In this document: positions 5,701 to 47,797 of the stretch, piece by piece
Layout: each line of letters starts with the position of its first letter
Position numbering within the stretch: position 1 is the stretch's first letter
DNA from: Fibrobacter sp. UWB2
Lineage (GTDB): Bacteria > Fibrobacterota > Fibrobacteria > Fibrobacterales > Fibrobacteraceae
Assembly: GCF_002210425.1 (NCBI RefSeq)
Contig: NZ_MWQK01000004.1
Location: forward strand, 1 to 64,000
DNA: 64,000 nt
Reading direction: 5' to 3'
Position numbers and translations under genes: made by a program
Notes under the pieces: generated by a model
Told to the model about the DNA's origin: nothing
Databases searched by the model: none
The model's input: only the letters and a program-made list of their open reading frames with translations

Positions 5701-7140
5701 ATGAGTGACGCTCTCGAAAAACGCATCAAGAAACACATCATCGGAAAACCGCACCGCTTTTTAGCCGTGTCTCCGCTTGGTTTTGAACAAACTCTTTCGA
5801 GAGAATTAGAAATCATTTTAGGCGAAAGCGCAACAGAACCGCCGCACGTCATCGGGGATGGCAAAGTCGAATTCACCACAAAACTCACTGAAGCCTGGAA
5901 AGCCGTCGCCGTAAGCCGCATCGCCTACCGCGTGCTCATGGAAGTTGCAAGTTTCAAAGCCGAAAACTTCCGCGATCTCGAAAAGAAAGCCGCCGAAATC
6001 CCATGGGAACTGTATTTTGACAAGAGAACGGACAACGCCCTACAGACGAGAGACGAGAGTATTATTCCTAGTAACTTACCACACATCCACGTTACGTGCA
6101 AACATTCCCGCCTGTACCACAGCGACGCCATCGCCGAACGTTTGTACAAAATAATAGAAGGGGTAAGCCTCCCCCTCGCTTCTGCCGACACGGCATCCGC
6201 AACCCCCTCTGCGGGGACACCCCGCAACGCCCCGTCGCAAAATCTCTATGTCAACTTTCTAGACGACCGCTGCACCATCTGGCTAGACCTCGCCGGCGAA
6301 GAGCTCTATAAACGCGGCTTTGAGCGATTCGTGAACGACGCTCCGCTCAAAGAAACCATCGCCTCCGCGATGATCTTCGAAGCAATAGAGATCCTTCGAC
6401 TTCGCGCTCCGCGCTCCGCTCAGGATGACACAAGCCATCCGCGAAGCATCACCCTTATCGACCTCATGTCCGGCAGTGGCACGTTCAGTCTTGAAGCAAC
6501 CTGCATTGCAAACAAAATCATTCCCGGCACTTGTCGCGATTTTGCACTTAAACACCAGCCCGCTTTCAAGGAAGCCACGTGGAATTTTATTACGCGAAGC
6601 AACTCTTCTGCACCCGTCACCCTGAGTGAAACGAAGGGTCCAGTAAAGTCTTGCAACACATTCGCGACAATCGCGAAAATCATCACGAGCGACATTTCCG
6701 AACGCGCGGTAAACATCATCAAGCACAACATCGAATGTAGCCCGCTTGCAAACATTTCGCCTGCGCCAATCGCACCGCAACAAAAAGATTTCTTCAGCTA
6801 TACCGCCAAAGAAATTGCAGACGCCTGCGGCGACACCTCGCCCATTCTCGTGCTGAACCCGCCCTACGGCAAGCGCCTCGATTTTGACGCCCCAAAGCTT
6901 TACACGCAAATAGGTAAAAAGCTAACAGAACTTGCTCGCGACCTGCACCATTTCGGCAAATCGCTCACAGTCGCCATCCTCGCCCCAAAAGACGACACCC
7001 GCGATGGCACCAAGTACACCTGCACCGCAAACCTTTTGCGCGAATGCCCCGCCCTTTCGAAAGAGCATAACCCAACCGCCAAAGTCATCCAAACAAGCCA
7101 CGGCGGCTTTAGCCTCAACGCCTTCTTTGCTACAATCTAG
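5701..7140 (+). CDS. THUMP-type RlmL-like RNA (guanine-N2) methyltransferase with repeat insertions
   Basis: 479 residues. An N-terminal THUMP-like region (FLAVSPLGFEQTLSRELE) is followed by the Rossmann methyltransferase core: LIDLMSGSGTFSLEA (SAM motif I), SDISERAVNIIKHN, and the catalytic NPPYGKRL motif. This fits the RlmL/YcbY N-terminal family that makes m2G in 23S rRNA; the exact target nucleotide cannot be read from sequence. Three stretches do not fit the fold: residues ~156-180 (Ala/Ser/Pro/Thr-rich), ~230-244 (RLRAPRSAQDD) and ~304-316 (APVTLSETKG). The last two are encoded by copies of the dispersed palindromic repeat. Frame is kept, so the gene is probably active. Confidence 0.85.
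   Translation: MSDALEKRIKKHIIGKPHRFLAVSPLGFEQTLSRELEIILGESATEPPHVIGDGKVEFTTKLTEAWKAVAVSRIAYRVLMEVASFKAENFRDLEKKAAEIPWELYFDKRTDNALQTRDESIIPSNLPHIHVTCKHSRLYHSDAIAERLYKIIEGVSLPLASADTASATPSAGTPRNAPSQNLYVNFLDDRCTIWLDLAGEELYKRGFERFVNDAPLKETIASAMIFEAIEILRLRAPRSAQDDTSHPRSITLIDLMSGSGTFSLEATCIANKIIPGTCRDFALKHQPAFKEATWNFITRSNSSAPVTLSETKGPVKSCNTFATIAKIITSDISERAVNIIKHNIECSPLANISPAPIAPQQKDFFSYTAKEIADACGDTSPILVLNPPYGKRLDFDAPKLYTQIGKKLTELARDLHHFGKSLTVAILAPKDDTRDGTKYTCTANLLRECPALSKEHNPTAKVIQTSHGGFSLNAFFATI
6160..6240 (+). repeat. In-frame GC-rich insertion within the methyltransferase gene
   Basis: This encodes a low-complexity linker absent from the expected fold. It contains the inverted repeat GCGGGG-ACA-CCCCGC. 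It resembles a repeat insertion but has no second copy in the window, so this is less certain than the two downstream ones. Confidence 0.4.
6388..6431 (+). repeat. Dispersed palindromic repeat (GATCC...AGGATGAC) inside a gene
   Basis: The ends match the intergenic copy at 47731-47797: AGATCCTTCGACTTCGC at one end and GCTCAGGATGACACA at the other; the middle is shorter. It is translated as RLRAPRSAQDD. Confidence 0.75.
6616..6644 (-). repeat. Second palindromic repeat copy inside the same gene, reversed
   Basis: The reverse complement begins GGACCCTTCG and ends CTCAGGGTGAC, the same architecture as the GGATCCTTCG...CTCAGGATGAC repeat in opposite orientation. It is translated as APVTLSETKG. 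Confidence 0.6.
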
Positions 7141-9107: not shown

Positions 9108-9139
9108 TTGTCATGCCCGCCACCGAGCGGGCATCTCCT
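9108..9139 (+). repeat. Palindromic repeat, GTCATGCCCGC type
   Basis: Stem ATGCCCGC / GCGGGCAT (9113-9120 with 9127-9134). One base differs from the copy at 22416-22447. Located directly after the ilvD stop. Confidence 0.8.
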
Positions 9140-9147
9140 TTTCATAC

Positions 9148-22415: not shown

Positions 22416-22447
22416 TTGTCATGCCCGCCACTGAGCGGGCATCTCCT
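22416..22447 (+). repeat. Palindromic repeat, GTCATGCCCGC type
   Basis: Almost identical to 9108-9139 (one base differs). Stem ATGCCCGC / GCGGGCAT. Located after the CBM9-like gene. Confidence 0.8.
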
Positions 22448-22464
22448 TTCACAGAACAAGAAGG

Positions 22465-22491
22465 CGATTCCCGATCAAGTCGGGAATGACA
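22465..22491 (+). repeat. Palindromic repeat, GATTCCCG...CGGGAATGAC type
   Basis: Stem ATTCCCGA/TCGGGAAT around TCAAG, ending ATGACA; lies just beyond the stop of the thioesterase gene. Confidence 0.75.
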
Positions 22492-22506
22492 ATCAGAACA
22501 ACAATC

Positions 22507-26930: not shown

Positions 26931-26940
26931 ATTGAAAGGG

Positions 26941-26967
26941 AGATTCCCGCTCAAGGCGGGAATGACA
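26941..26967 (+). repeat. Palindromic repeat, GATTCCCG...CGGGAATGAC type
   Basis: GATTCCCGC-TCAAG-GCGGGAATGACA, close to the copy at 22465. Confidence 0.75.
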
Positions 26968-46559: not shown

Positions 46560-46635
46560 GCGGCTACGCCGCAGTTGGCAGAACTTAGACCGCTACGCTC
46601 TTAGAACTTAGTTATTTGCTCTTAGATAAGAGATT

Positions 46636-46692
<57 letters not shown>

Positions 46693-46700
46693 CACTTACC

Positions 46701-47714
46701 TCATACCTCTACAAGAGTCGCGACTAAGCAAGAATCTTTTGTAGAACCGCTACCGACAAAGTCTACGTCTTGGGATTTTTTCCAAGACGTTTTTGCATTC
46801 GGGTGCACGGAAGAAACTGCGGCGAGGACATCGCGAGCAAAAGCGGACAGGTTGAATTCGCTGTAGTTGGAACTCACCATGAAGAATCCGCCCGGATTCA
46901 GGAGCGTTGCACAGTCAGCAACGAGCGGCATCAAGTGTTCGCGCACGTTAAAGTTAAAGCCCTTGAAACGCGCAAAGCTCGGCGGGTCTAGCACGATACC
47001 GTCAAAACGTAAGCCCTTCTTTTGAGCCCAATGCACGTATTCGATAGCGTTACCGCGGAAGAACTCTCCAGGGCGCAAATCGAGGCCGTTTAAGGCGTAA
47101 TTTTCACGGCCCTTGTCGAGAATCTTGCCGCTGATATCGGCGTTTGTAGCAACCGCAGCACCGCCTAGACGGGCGTGTACGGAGAAACTGCATGTATAGC
47201 TGAATAGGTTCAAAAAACGGAGGCCGGGATTTTCGGGATGCGCCGAGGCTTCGAGATTCGCCGGAGATGCGCCGGACATTTCGCGGAATCGTTCTTCGAC
47301 TTCGAGGCGCACGTGACGCATATCCAAAAAAAGCCCCGGATTGATTGTATCGAGCAAGTCCACATGAAAATTGGCATTGCCTTCGCGAACGGTTCCAACG
47401 GCATCTTCACGCGTACCAATCACGACATCCATCGGAGCGTTCTCAAGCGATTTTCCAGAGCTCGAAAGGCGTTCCTTAGAGACTACGCAAACGGGATTGA
47501 AAAGAGCGCCCAAGGCCTCGACAATTTCGGTCTTGCTCGTCAATAGCTCCGGTCCAAAAAACTGCATCTGGTAACGGTCACCGAACTTGTCTATCGTGAG
47601 TCCCGGGAAACCATCGGCAGCGCCATTCACAATGCGCAAAGCATCCGTTACATCGAATAACGGAGCGCGCTTTTCGTGCGCAATCGCTAACTTGTTTTTT
47701 AAATCAAAAGCCAT
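46701..47714 (-). CDS. rlmI: RlmI-like class I rRNA (cytosine-5) methyltransferase
   Basis: 337 residues. N-terminal EEHEE-like region (VNGAADGFPGLTIDKFGDRYQMQFF), then the Rossmann core: NPGLFLDMRHVR, LRFLNLFSYTCSFSVHA (SAM motif I), ADISGKILDKGRENYALN, and the catalytic IVLDPPSFAR. This is the RlmI/RlmK-like family acting on 23S rRNA; the exact site is inferred. It lacks the N-terminal PUA domain usual in RlmI, so the symbol is tentative. Confidence 0.78.
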   Translation of the reverse strand: MAFDLKNKLAIAHEKRAPLFDVTDALRIVNGAADGFPGLTIDKFGDRYQMQFFGPELLTSKTEIVEALGALFNPVCVVSKERLSSSGKSLENAPMDVVIGTREDAVGTVREGNANFHVDLLDTINPGLFLDMRHVRLEVEERFREMSGASPANLEASAHPENPGLRFLNLFSYTCSFSVHARLGGAAVATNADISGKILDKGRENYALNGLDLRPGEFFRGNAIEYVHWAQKKGLRFDGIVLDPPSFARFKGFNFNVREHLMPLVADCATLLNPGGFFMVSSNYSEFNLSAFARDVLAAVSSVHPNAKTSWKKSQDVDFVGSGSTKDSCLVATLVEV

Positions 47715-47730
47715 TCGAGAAAATGAATCC

Positions 47731-47797
47731 TAGATCCTTCGACTTCGCAACTTCGTTGCGGAGCCTGTCCTGAGCTTGTCGAAGGGCTCAGGATGAC
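47731..47797 (+). repeat. Palindromic repeat, long GATCC...AGGATGAC copy
   Basis: Contains nested hairpins (GCAACTTCGTTGC; CCTGAGCTTGTCGAAGGGCTCAGG). Shares both ends with the copy inside the methyltransferase gene at 6388. Confidence 0.8.

Follow-up and report, generated by a model that had tools for sequence, protein, structure and literature searches.

How did dispersed repeats come to lie in frame within the gene of an rRNA methyltransferase in Fibrobacter sp. UWB2, and what keeps them there? The gene (positions 5701–7140, plus strand, 479 amino acids) lies in a window of 64,000 nucleotides, the whole stretch of DNA analysed here, and was assigned by Pfam, NCBIfam and fold matches as an rlmL-like 23S rRNA (guanine-N2) methyltransferase gene. 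The Pfam models UPF0020 (E = 6.9e-13) and RlmL_1st (E = 2.8e-6) both scored above their cut-offs. The NCBIfam model of the fused RlmKL protein matched at 1.8e-37 with 129 bits, below its equivalog cut-off of 466, and spanned the RlmL half only. Fold matches were obtained to 3ldu, 3ldg and 3v97, representing RlmL and its homologues, and the domain set of RlmL is present, with a ferredoxin-like domain and a UPF0020 Rossmann methyltransferase domain carrying NPPYG at residues 386–390. Judged by its sequence, the product is an RlmL-type enzyme, RlmL being the 23S rRNA m2G2445 methyltransferase. The SAM-binding motif I DLMSGSGTF (6460–6486, plus strand, residues 254–262) is intact and falls in invariant or nearly invariant alignment columns. 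The same is true for the catalytic motif IV NPPYGKR (6856–6876, plus strand, residues 386–392), of which columns 386–390 and 392 are invariant.

Four dispersed repeats of three families (A, B and C/D) were found in frame in this gene. Using positions 5900–6700 as query against the genome itself, separate dispersed matches were obtained for each of the four segments A to D. Family profiles were built from the copies found in a genome sample of 464 kb, composed of 400 kb of stretches plus the window and covering about 13% of the genome. Insert A (6015–6065, plus strand, loop 2, residues 105–122) is a heptamer-flanked dispersed element, GACRAGAGAACGG...GCCCTACAGACGAGAGACGAGAG, with an 84% match at C6:24080-24130 (E = 1.7e-8) and a profile E-value of 4.2e-14. 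Insert B (6158–6234, plus strand, loop 3, residues 153–178) is a GC-rich hairpin element encoding GVSLPLASADTASATPSAGTPRNAP, with 82–83% matches elsewhere in the genome at E about 1e-16; 7 copies of its family were found in the 464 kb sample, 3 of them within genes. Insert C (6389–6430, minus in element orientation, loop 4, residues 230–244) is a palindrome of the CD family encoding EILRLRAPRSAQDDT and the top scorer among the 41 genome copies found with the covariance model (E = 3e-14). Insert D (6615–6651, plus strand, loop 5, residues 305–317) is a short palindrome of the same family, CGTCACCCTGAGTGAAACGAAGGGTCCA, encoding PVTLSETKGPVKS, and has matches at C7:33094, C1:53855, C6:173341 and C1:462176. 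C and D belong to one family in opposite orientations, with profile E-values in the 464 kb sample of 1.5e-6 on the minus and 1.7e-8 on the plus strand. A preliminary description of the DNA had taken residues ~230–244 and ~304–316 for oppositely oriented copies of a dispersed repeat, and the profile matches on both strands confirm this. It had also named a third, GC-rich hairpin segment (~156–180) and stated that all three keep the frame and leave the catalytic motifs intact, which they do. The hairpin turned out to be a dispersed repeat in its own right, namely of family B. The segments it named are thus real, while insert A as the fourth had been missed.

In an AlphaFold2 model of the host protein, built from 15 sequences and of modest quality (mean pLDDT 64), residues 108–125, 156–187, 236–246 and 271–322 had a pLDDT below 50 and formed coil between strands and helices. 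The inserts are thus placed in low-confidence coil between secondary-structure elements, in line with the surface loops proposed before. The region of insert C falls mostly into gaps when aligned with PDB entries 3k0b and 3ldg.

The CD family occurs in a long form, TGTCATCCTGAGCGAAG...GAAGTCGAAGGATC, and in a short form, exemplified by insert D. Its stem ends covary with both partners changed (ATCCT/AGGAT, ATTCT/AGAAT, ATGCT/AGCAT, ACCCT/AGGGT), and since the changes affect both sides of the stem, the palindrome itself is maintained. Using the covariance model, at least 41 copies were counted in the genome itself and 59, 92 and 24 in three others. G098, which belongs to another genus of the same family, gave 24 CD-family matches, so that the CD family extends past the genus Fibrobacter. 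Among the best 30 of the 41 copies, 23 were intergenic, 3 lay at gene edges and 4 inside genes; absence of the repeat from other intergenic sites, which would have spoken against the preliminary description, is thereby refuted. As 88% of the genome sample is coding, yet only 4 of these 30 copies lie within genes, most coding insertions are absent; presumably, they were purged. Outside the host gene, the window contains a CD-family element enlarged by the internal palindrome CCCTTCGACAAGCTCAGGACAGG (47730–47797, minus strand). It also contains four intergenic elements of family REP1 with a TGTC tag, an 8-bp stem and a loop of 5–6 nt (9108–9140 and 22416–22448, plus strand; 22461–22492 and 26939–26967, minus strand). 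All five were found by profile. A scan of the window with the short-form CD consensus pattern gave no match, because the copies of the window are long-form or diverged, and these are detected by the profiles. Two CD elements (L225, C1:259792; L233, C6:24135) reach into predicted genes, one of which gains terminal residues at its 3' end and the other at its start. Families A and E carry AGACGAG heptamers on their flanks, which would make heptamer arrays likely places of landing or exchange. At positions 46600–46705 of the window, the 7-bp unit GTTCTAA is repeated in an array that has a partial inverted arm. The Y1_Tnp/RAYT transposase domain (PF01797) had no match in the genome itself, while control genomes did match. 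An Rfam search of the region returned only RsmV with nothing above a gathering score; with an E-value of 0.69, far under its gathering score, this identity was rejected.

Elements were found in 7 of the 368 genes of the sample, and the rlmL-like gene alone accounts for 4 of the 12 copies within genes. A Ser-rich Fib_succ_major protein contains 3 elements and the remaining host genes of the sample one each. The families of the rlmL-like gene have also invaded CoaBC and RluD, in the linkers between domains. Single inserts were found in genes for a glycosyltransferase, FeoB, a TonB-type receptor, RsmB, a periplasmic binding protein, TilS, HsdS and an ABC ATPase. Insertion into so many genes indicates a genome-wide process, of which the rlmL-like gene is the extreme case found; as the sample covers only a small part of the genome, other extreme genes may exist. 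RNA-modification enzymes make up 4 of about 12 hosts (RluD type, L125:7259-8386; RsmB, L208:600-1901; TilS, L245:1145-2434; and the gene of the window), a number which may mislead in so small a sample. In the RluD linker of L171, L186 and L188 a further segment, PPKGGHAHISAEALSGQ, is nested in the B element with the frame kept.

Orthologues were gathered from 111 genomes of the family and aligned. Those from other genera of the family have open frames of approximately 358–436 amino acids and do not contain the insert segments, so that phylum-wide peptides, named in the preliminary description as a possible refutation, were not found. Within the genus, orthologues reach 621 amino acids and the length variation is confined to five loops. 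These measure 7–111 amino acids compared to outgroup medians of 8–19, whereby their boundaries were delimited from the variable alignment and are not independent of the inserts. By contrast, three control genes kept their length. The adjoining gene for IlvD encodes 618–619 amino acids where full length, with one frame about 20 amino acids shorter, a 418-aa gene is constant across orthologues, and a 500-aa gene matched over 495–509 amino acids at 77–100% identity. Labelling the loops with profiles for six families and a heptamer detector, recognisable elements were found in 60 of the 67 intact orthologues of the genus, 43 of which had at least two loops occupied; recognised elements account for only 30% of the loop DNA. 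The real loops gave 124 family matches versus none in codon-shuffled loops; coding DNA of the core (71 kb) gave no family match and four heptamer calls only. A tree of the core columns requires at least 5, 24, 14, 20 and 28 state changes in the five loops, in sum about 91. In loop 2, for example, A is found in the species of the window, whereas its closest relatives have CD-minus or CD-plus there. One 96-bp element, 98–99% identical, is found in loop 2 of G059 and in loop 5 of G024. In loop 3 of the longest orthologue (L087 from G046, 621 amino acids), a peptide of approximately 28 residues (LSTKGYVTLEGGTTDRVLDDCR) is repeated in tandem about four times in near-identical form. In the draft genomes G082 (L091) and G085 (L093) the frame of the gene is broken. 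The breaks seem to lie close to loops 3 and 5 and could reflect out-of-frame insertions or assembly errors. Because close relatives have some inserts in common, the invasion was long-running across the genus with rapid turnover and not a single recent spread. A purely recent origin was rejected due to the genus-wide presence of inserts. Of the recent spread into coding DNA proposed earlier, the spread was corroborated and the recency was not.

The core of the enzyme is under strong purifying selection (dN/dS 0.07–0.15 among eight close species), and the inserts are close to neutral, with a dN/dS of 0.59 in homologous element-bearing loops. For family B in loop 3, mean element divergence was 0.105 across 212 pairs with a 4-fold divergence of 0.5–0.6. 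Same-loop elements of distant species thus differ by about 10% versus 50–60% at neutral core sites, a similarity to be read in the light of a profile detection biased to similar copies. Simple neutral decay after an old insertion has no explanatory power for it. Cases of identity in the same loop require reinsertion at preferred sites, gene conversion with dispersed copies, or constraint at the DNA level.

With high probability, non-autonomous palindromic repeats insert widely in these genomes and selection retains in-frame copies in the tolerant loops of the rlmL-like gene. Several short, non-autonomous, mostly palindromic families would spread together with heptamer arrays through Fibrobacter genomes, probably by transposition-like events. 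Most copies landing in genes would be lost, and survivors would be those with the frame kept, without a stop, and sited in disordered loops or interdomain linkers. As this RlmL-type enzyme has five permissive loops, these may have been filled, emptied and refilled by different elements during the history of the genus. The catalytic core would have stayed under strong selection throughout, with the inserted peptides as nearly neutral passengers of a protein that is presumably made with them.

Clearly less probable, although the strongest competitor, is that loop contents are mostly exchanged between species and between copies, through recombination of short tracts or gene conversion with the many dispersed copies and not through new insertion, while the original insertions were few and old. 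Elements at the same site can be near-identical in diverged species. The loop 5 elements of L015 and L017 show 0 differences in 44 positions while the 4-fold sites of the core differ at 56 of 147, and A and CD elements recur at one site and in one frame in distant branches. Nevertheless, the DNA directly flanking the identical element diverges normally, one element is found in different loops, and the sister species L009–L012 hold different families in one loop (A, CD plus, CD minus). One may also speculate that insertion into coding loops of Fibrobacter is an ongoing and quasi-directed source of protein variation, with preferred sites and frames and with elements homogenised by exchange with genomic copies, family B being a reusable linker module of unrelated enzymes; we regard this reading as rather doubtful.

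Even less credit is given to a domestication of the inserts, above all of element B as a Pro/Ala/Ser linker kept for its peptide. B is found in identical orientation and frame (GxSLPLA...ATPS) in 6 of 8 unrelated host genes, which hints at filtering at the peptide level, yet B copies are free of stops in most frames. Given the stop-free rates, the chance of at least 6 hosts sharing one B frame, computed by hand, is about 0.003. B also sits in the linkers between the domains of RluD, CoaBC and a glycosyltransferase. Against this stand a pN/pS of about 0.95 in loop 3 of the rlmL-like gene, where B is absent from half of the species, the use of the antisense strand of B in two hosts, and the few hosts sampled.

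It is very improbable that the hairpins act as RNA in the rlmL mRNA, through pausing, decay or autoregulation, and that the gene collects them for this reason. The DNA of the elements is conserved and the C/D stems stay paired via changes on both sides, but intergenic copies keep the same pairing, which therefore is a property of the element and not of the rlmL-like gene; moreover, family, loop and orientation vary between species, and Rfam offered no accepted match. A decaying pseudogene or assembly artefacts, to which the broken draft frames might point, can be practically dismissed in the face of a core dN/dS of about 0.1, on which the pseudogene reading was rejected, of 67 intact long frames in separate genomes and of a host genome that is 99.99% complete.

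Palindromic repeats within proteins were first reported from Rickettsia, and scattered cases followed from genomes rich in REPs. What is new here is the phylum, as far as the open-access literature goes, how many families take part, and that a single gene was colonised again and again throughout a genus. A search of the open-access literature found no paper on these Fibrobacter elements and none printing typical insert peptides. A housekeeping enzyme that was invaded repeatedly, and in one set of loops, in most species of a genus offers a natural replicated experiment, in which insertion, loss and frame selection can be measured and insertion-tolerant loops mapped. It also allows a hunt for the mover of CGTC-type repeats in RAYT-free genomes. 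Nearly every Fibrobacter species would possess a differently decorated protein around a strongly conserved core, and annotators should be warned that such peptides derive from repeats.

The Rickettsia palindromic elements (RPEs; Ogata and Claverie) are likewise dispersed palindromes that occur in intergenic DNA and, in frame, within unrelated proteins, to which they add approximately 13–30 amino acids with core motifs intact. The Fibrobacter repeats behave in the same way, with intergenic copies as well as in-frame copies in unrelated genes. The parallel with Rickettsia drawn at the outset holds for behaviour, plus a partial match of C/D to the CGTC-REP architecture. Homology is not claimed; no NCBIfam model, RPE models included, matched the insert peptides up to an E-value of 10. 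Fibrobacter differs in being a free-living gut genus of another phylum, and in having several unrelated families in one gene that was recolonised in most species of the genus. The CGTC-REPs, a superfamily for which no dedicated transposase is known, include dRS3, RPE-4 and RPE-6 and were listed for five phyla, Fibrobacteres not among them (PMC3733652). By their sequence, C/D and REP1 appear to fit this architecture in part. The tag (CGTC or TGTC) and, after it, a stem that begins with AT were found in 10 of 12 C/D and 17 of 21 REP1 copies, with AC for AT in insert D. Compared to the CGTC-REP stem of 8–9 bp with a 4–5 nt loop, REP1 has 8 bp and 5–6 nt, while in C/D only 5 contiguous outer pairs precede a bulge and an inner arm that varies. 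The CGTC-REP tail is unpaired and mostly CCA, versus CCA in 4 of 10 C/D copies and CTC in 13 of 17 REP1 copies, where it usually reads CTCC. REPs inside protein genes were described for many species (uvrA, recB, dnaE2 and others), some genes having two; occasionally, related species share roughly the insertion site, as in recB of X. campestris and X. oryzae (PMC3733652). The gene described here differs by four inserts of three families and by turnover in five loops across 60 species. The STRR heptanucleotide repeats of cyanobacteria are tandem 7-bp arrays. The Fibrobacter arrays of the AGACGAG and ACTAACC types are similar, but here heptamers stand in frame in coding loops and flank the palindromic cores of families A and E.
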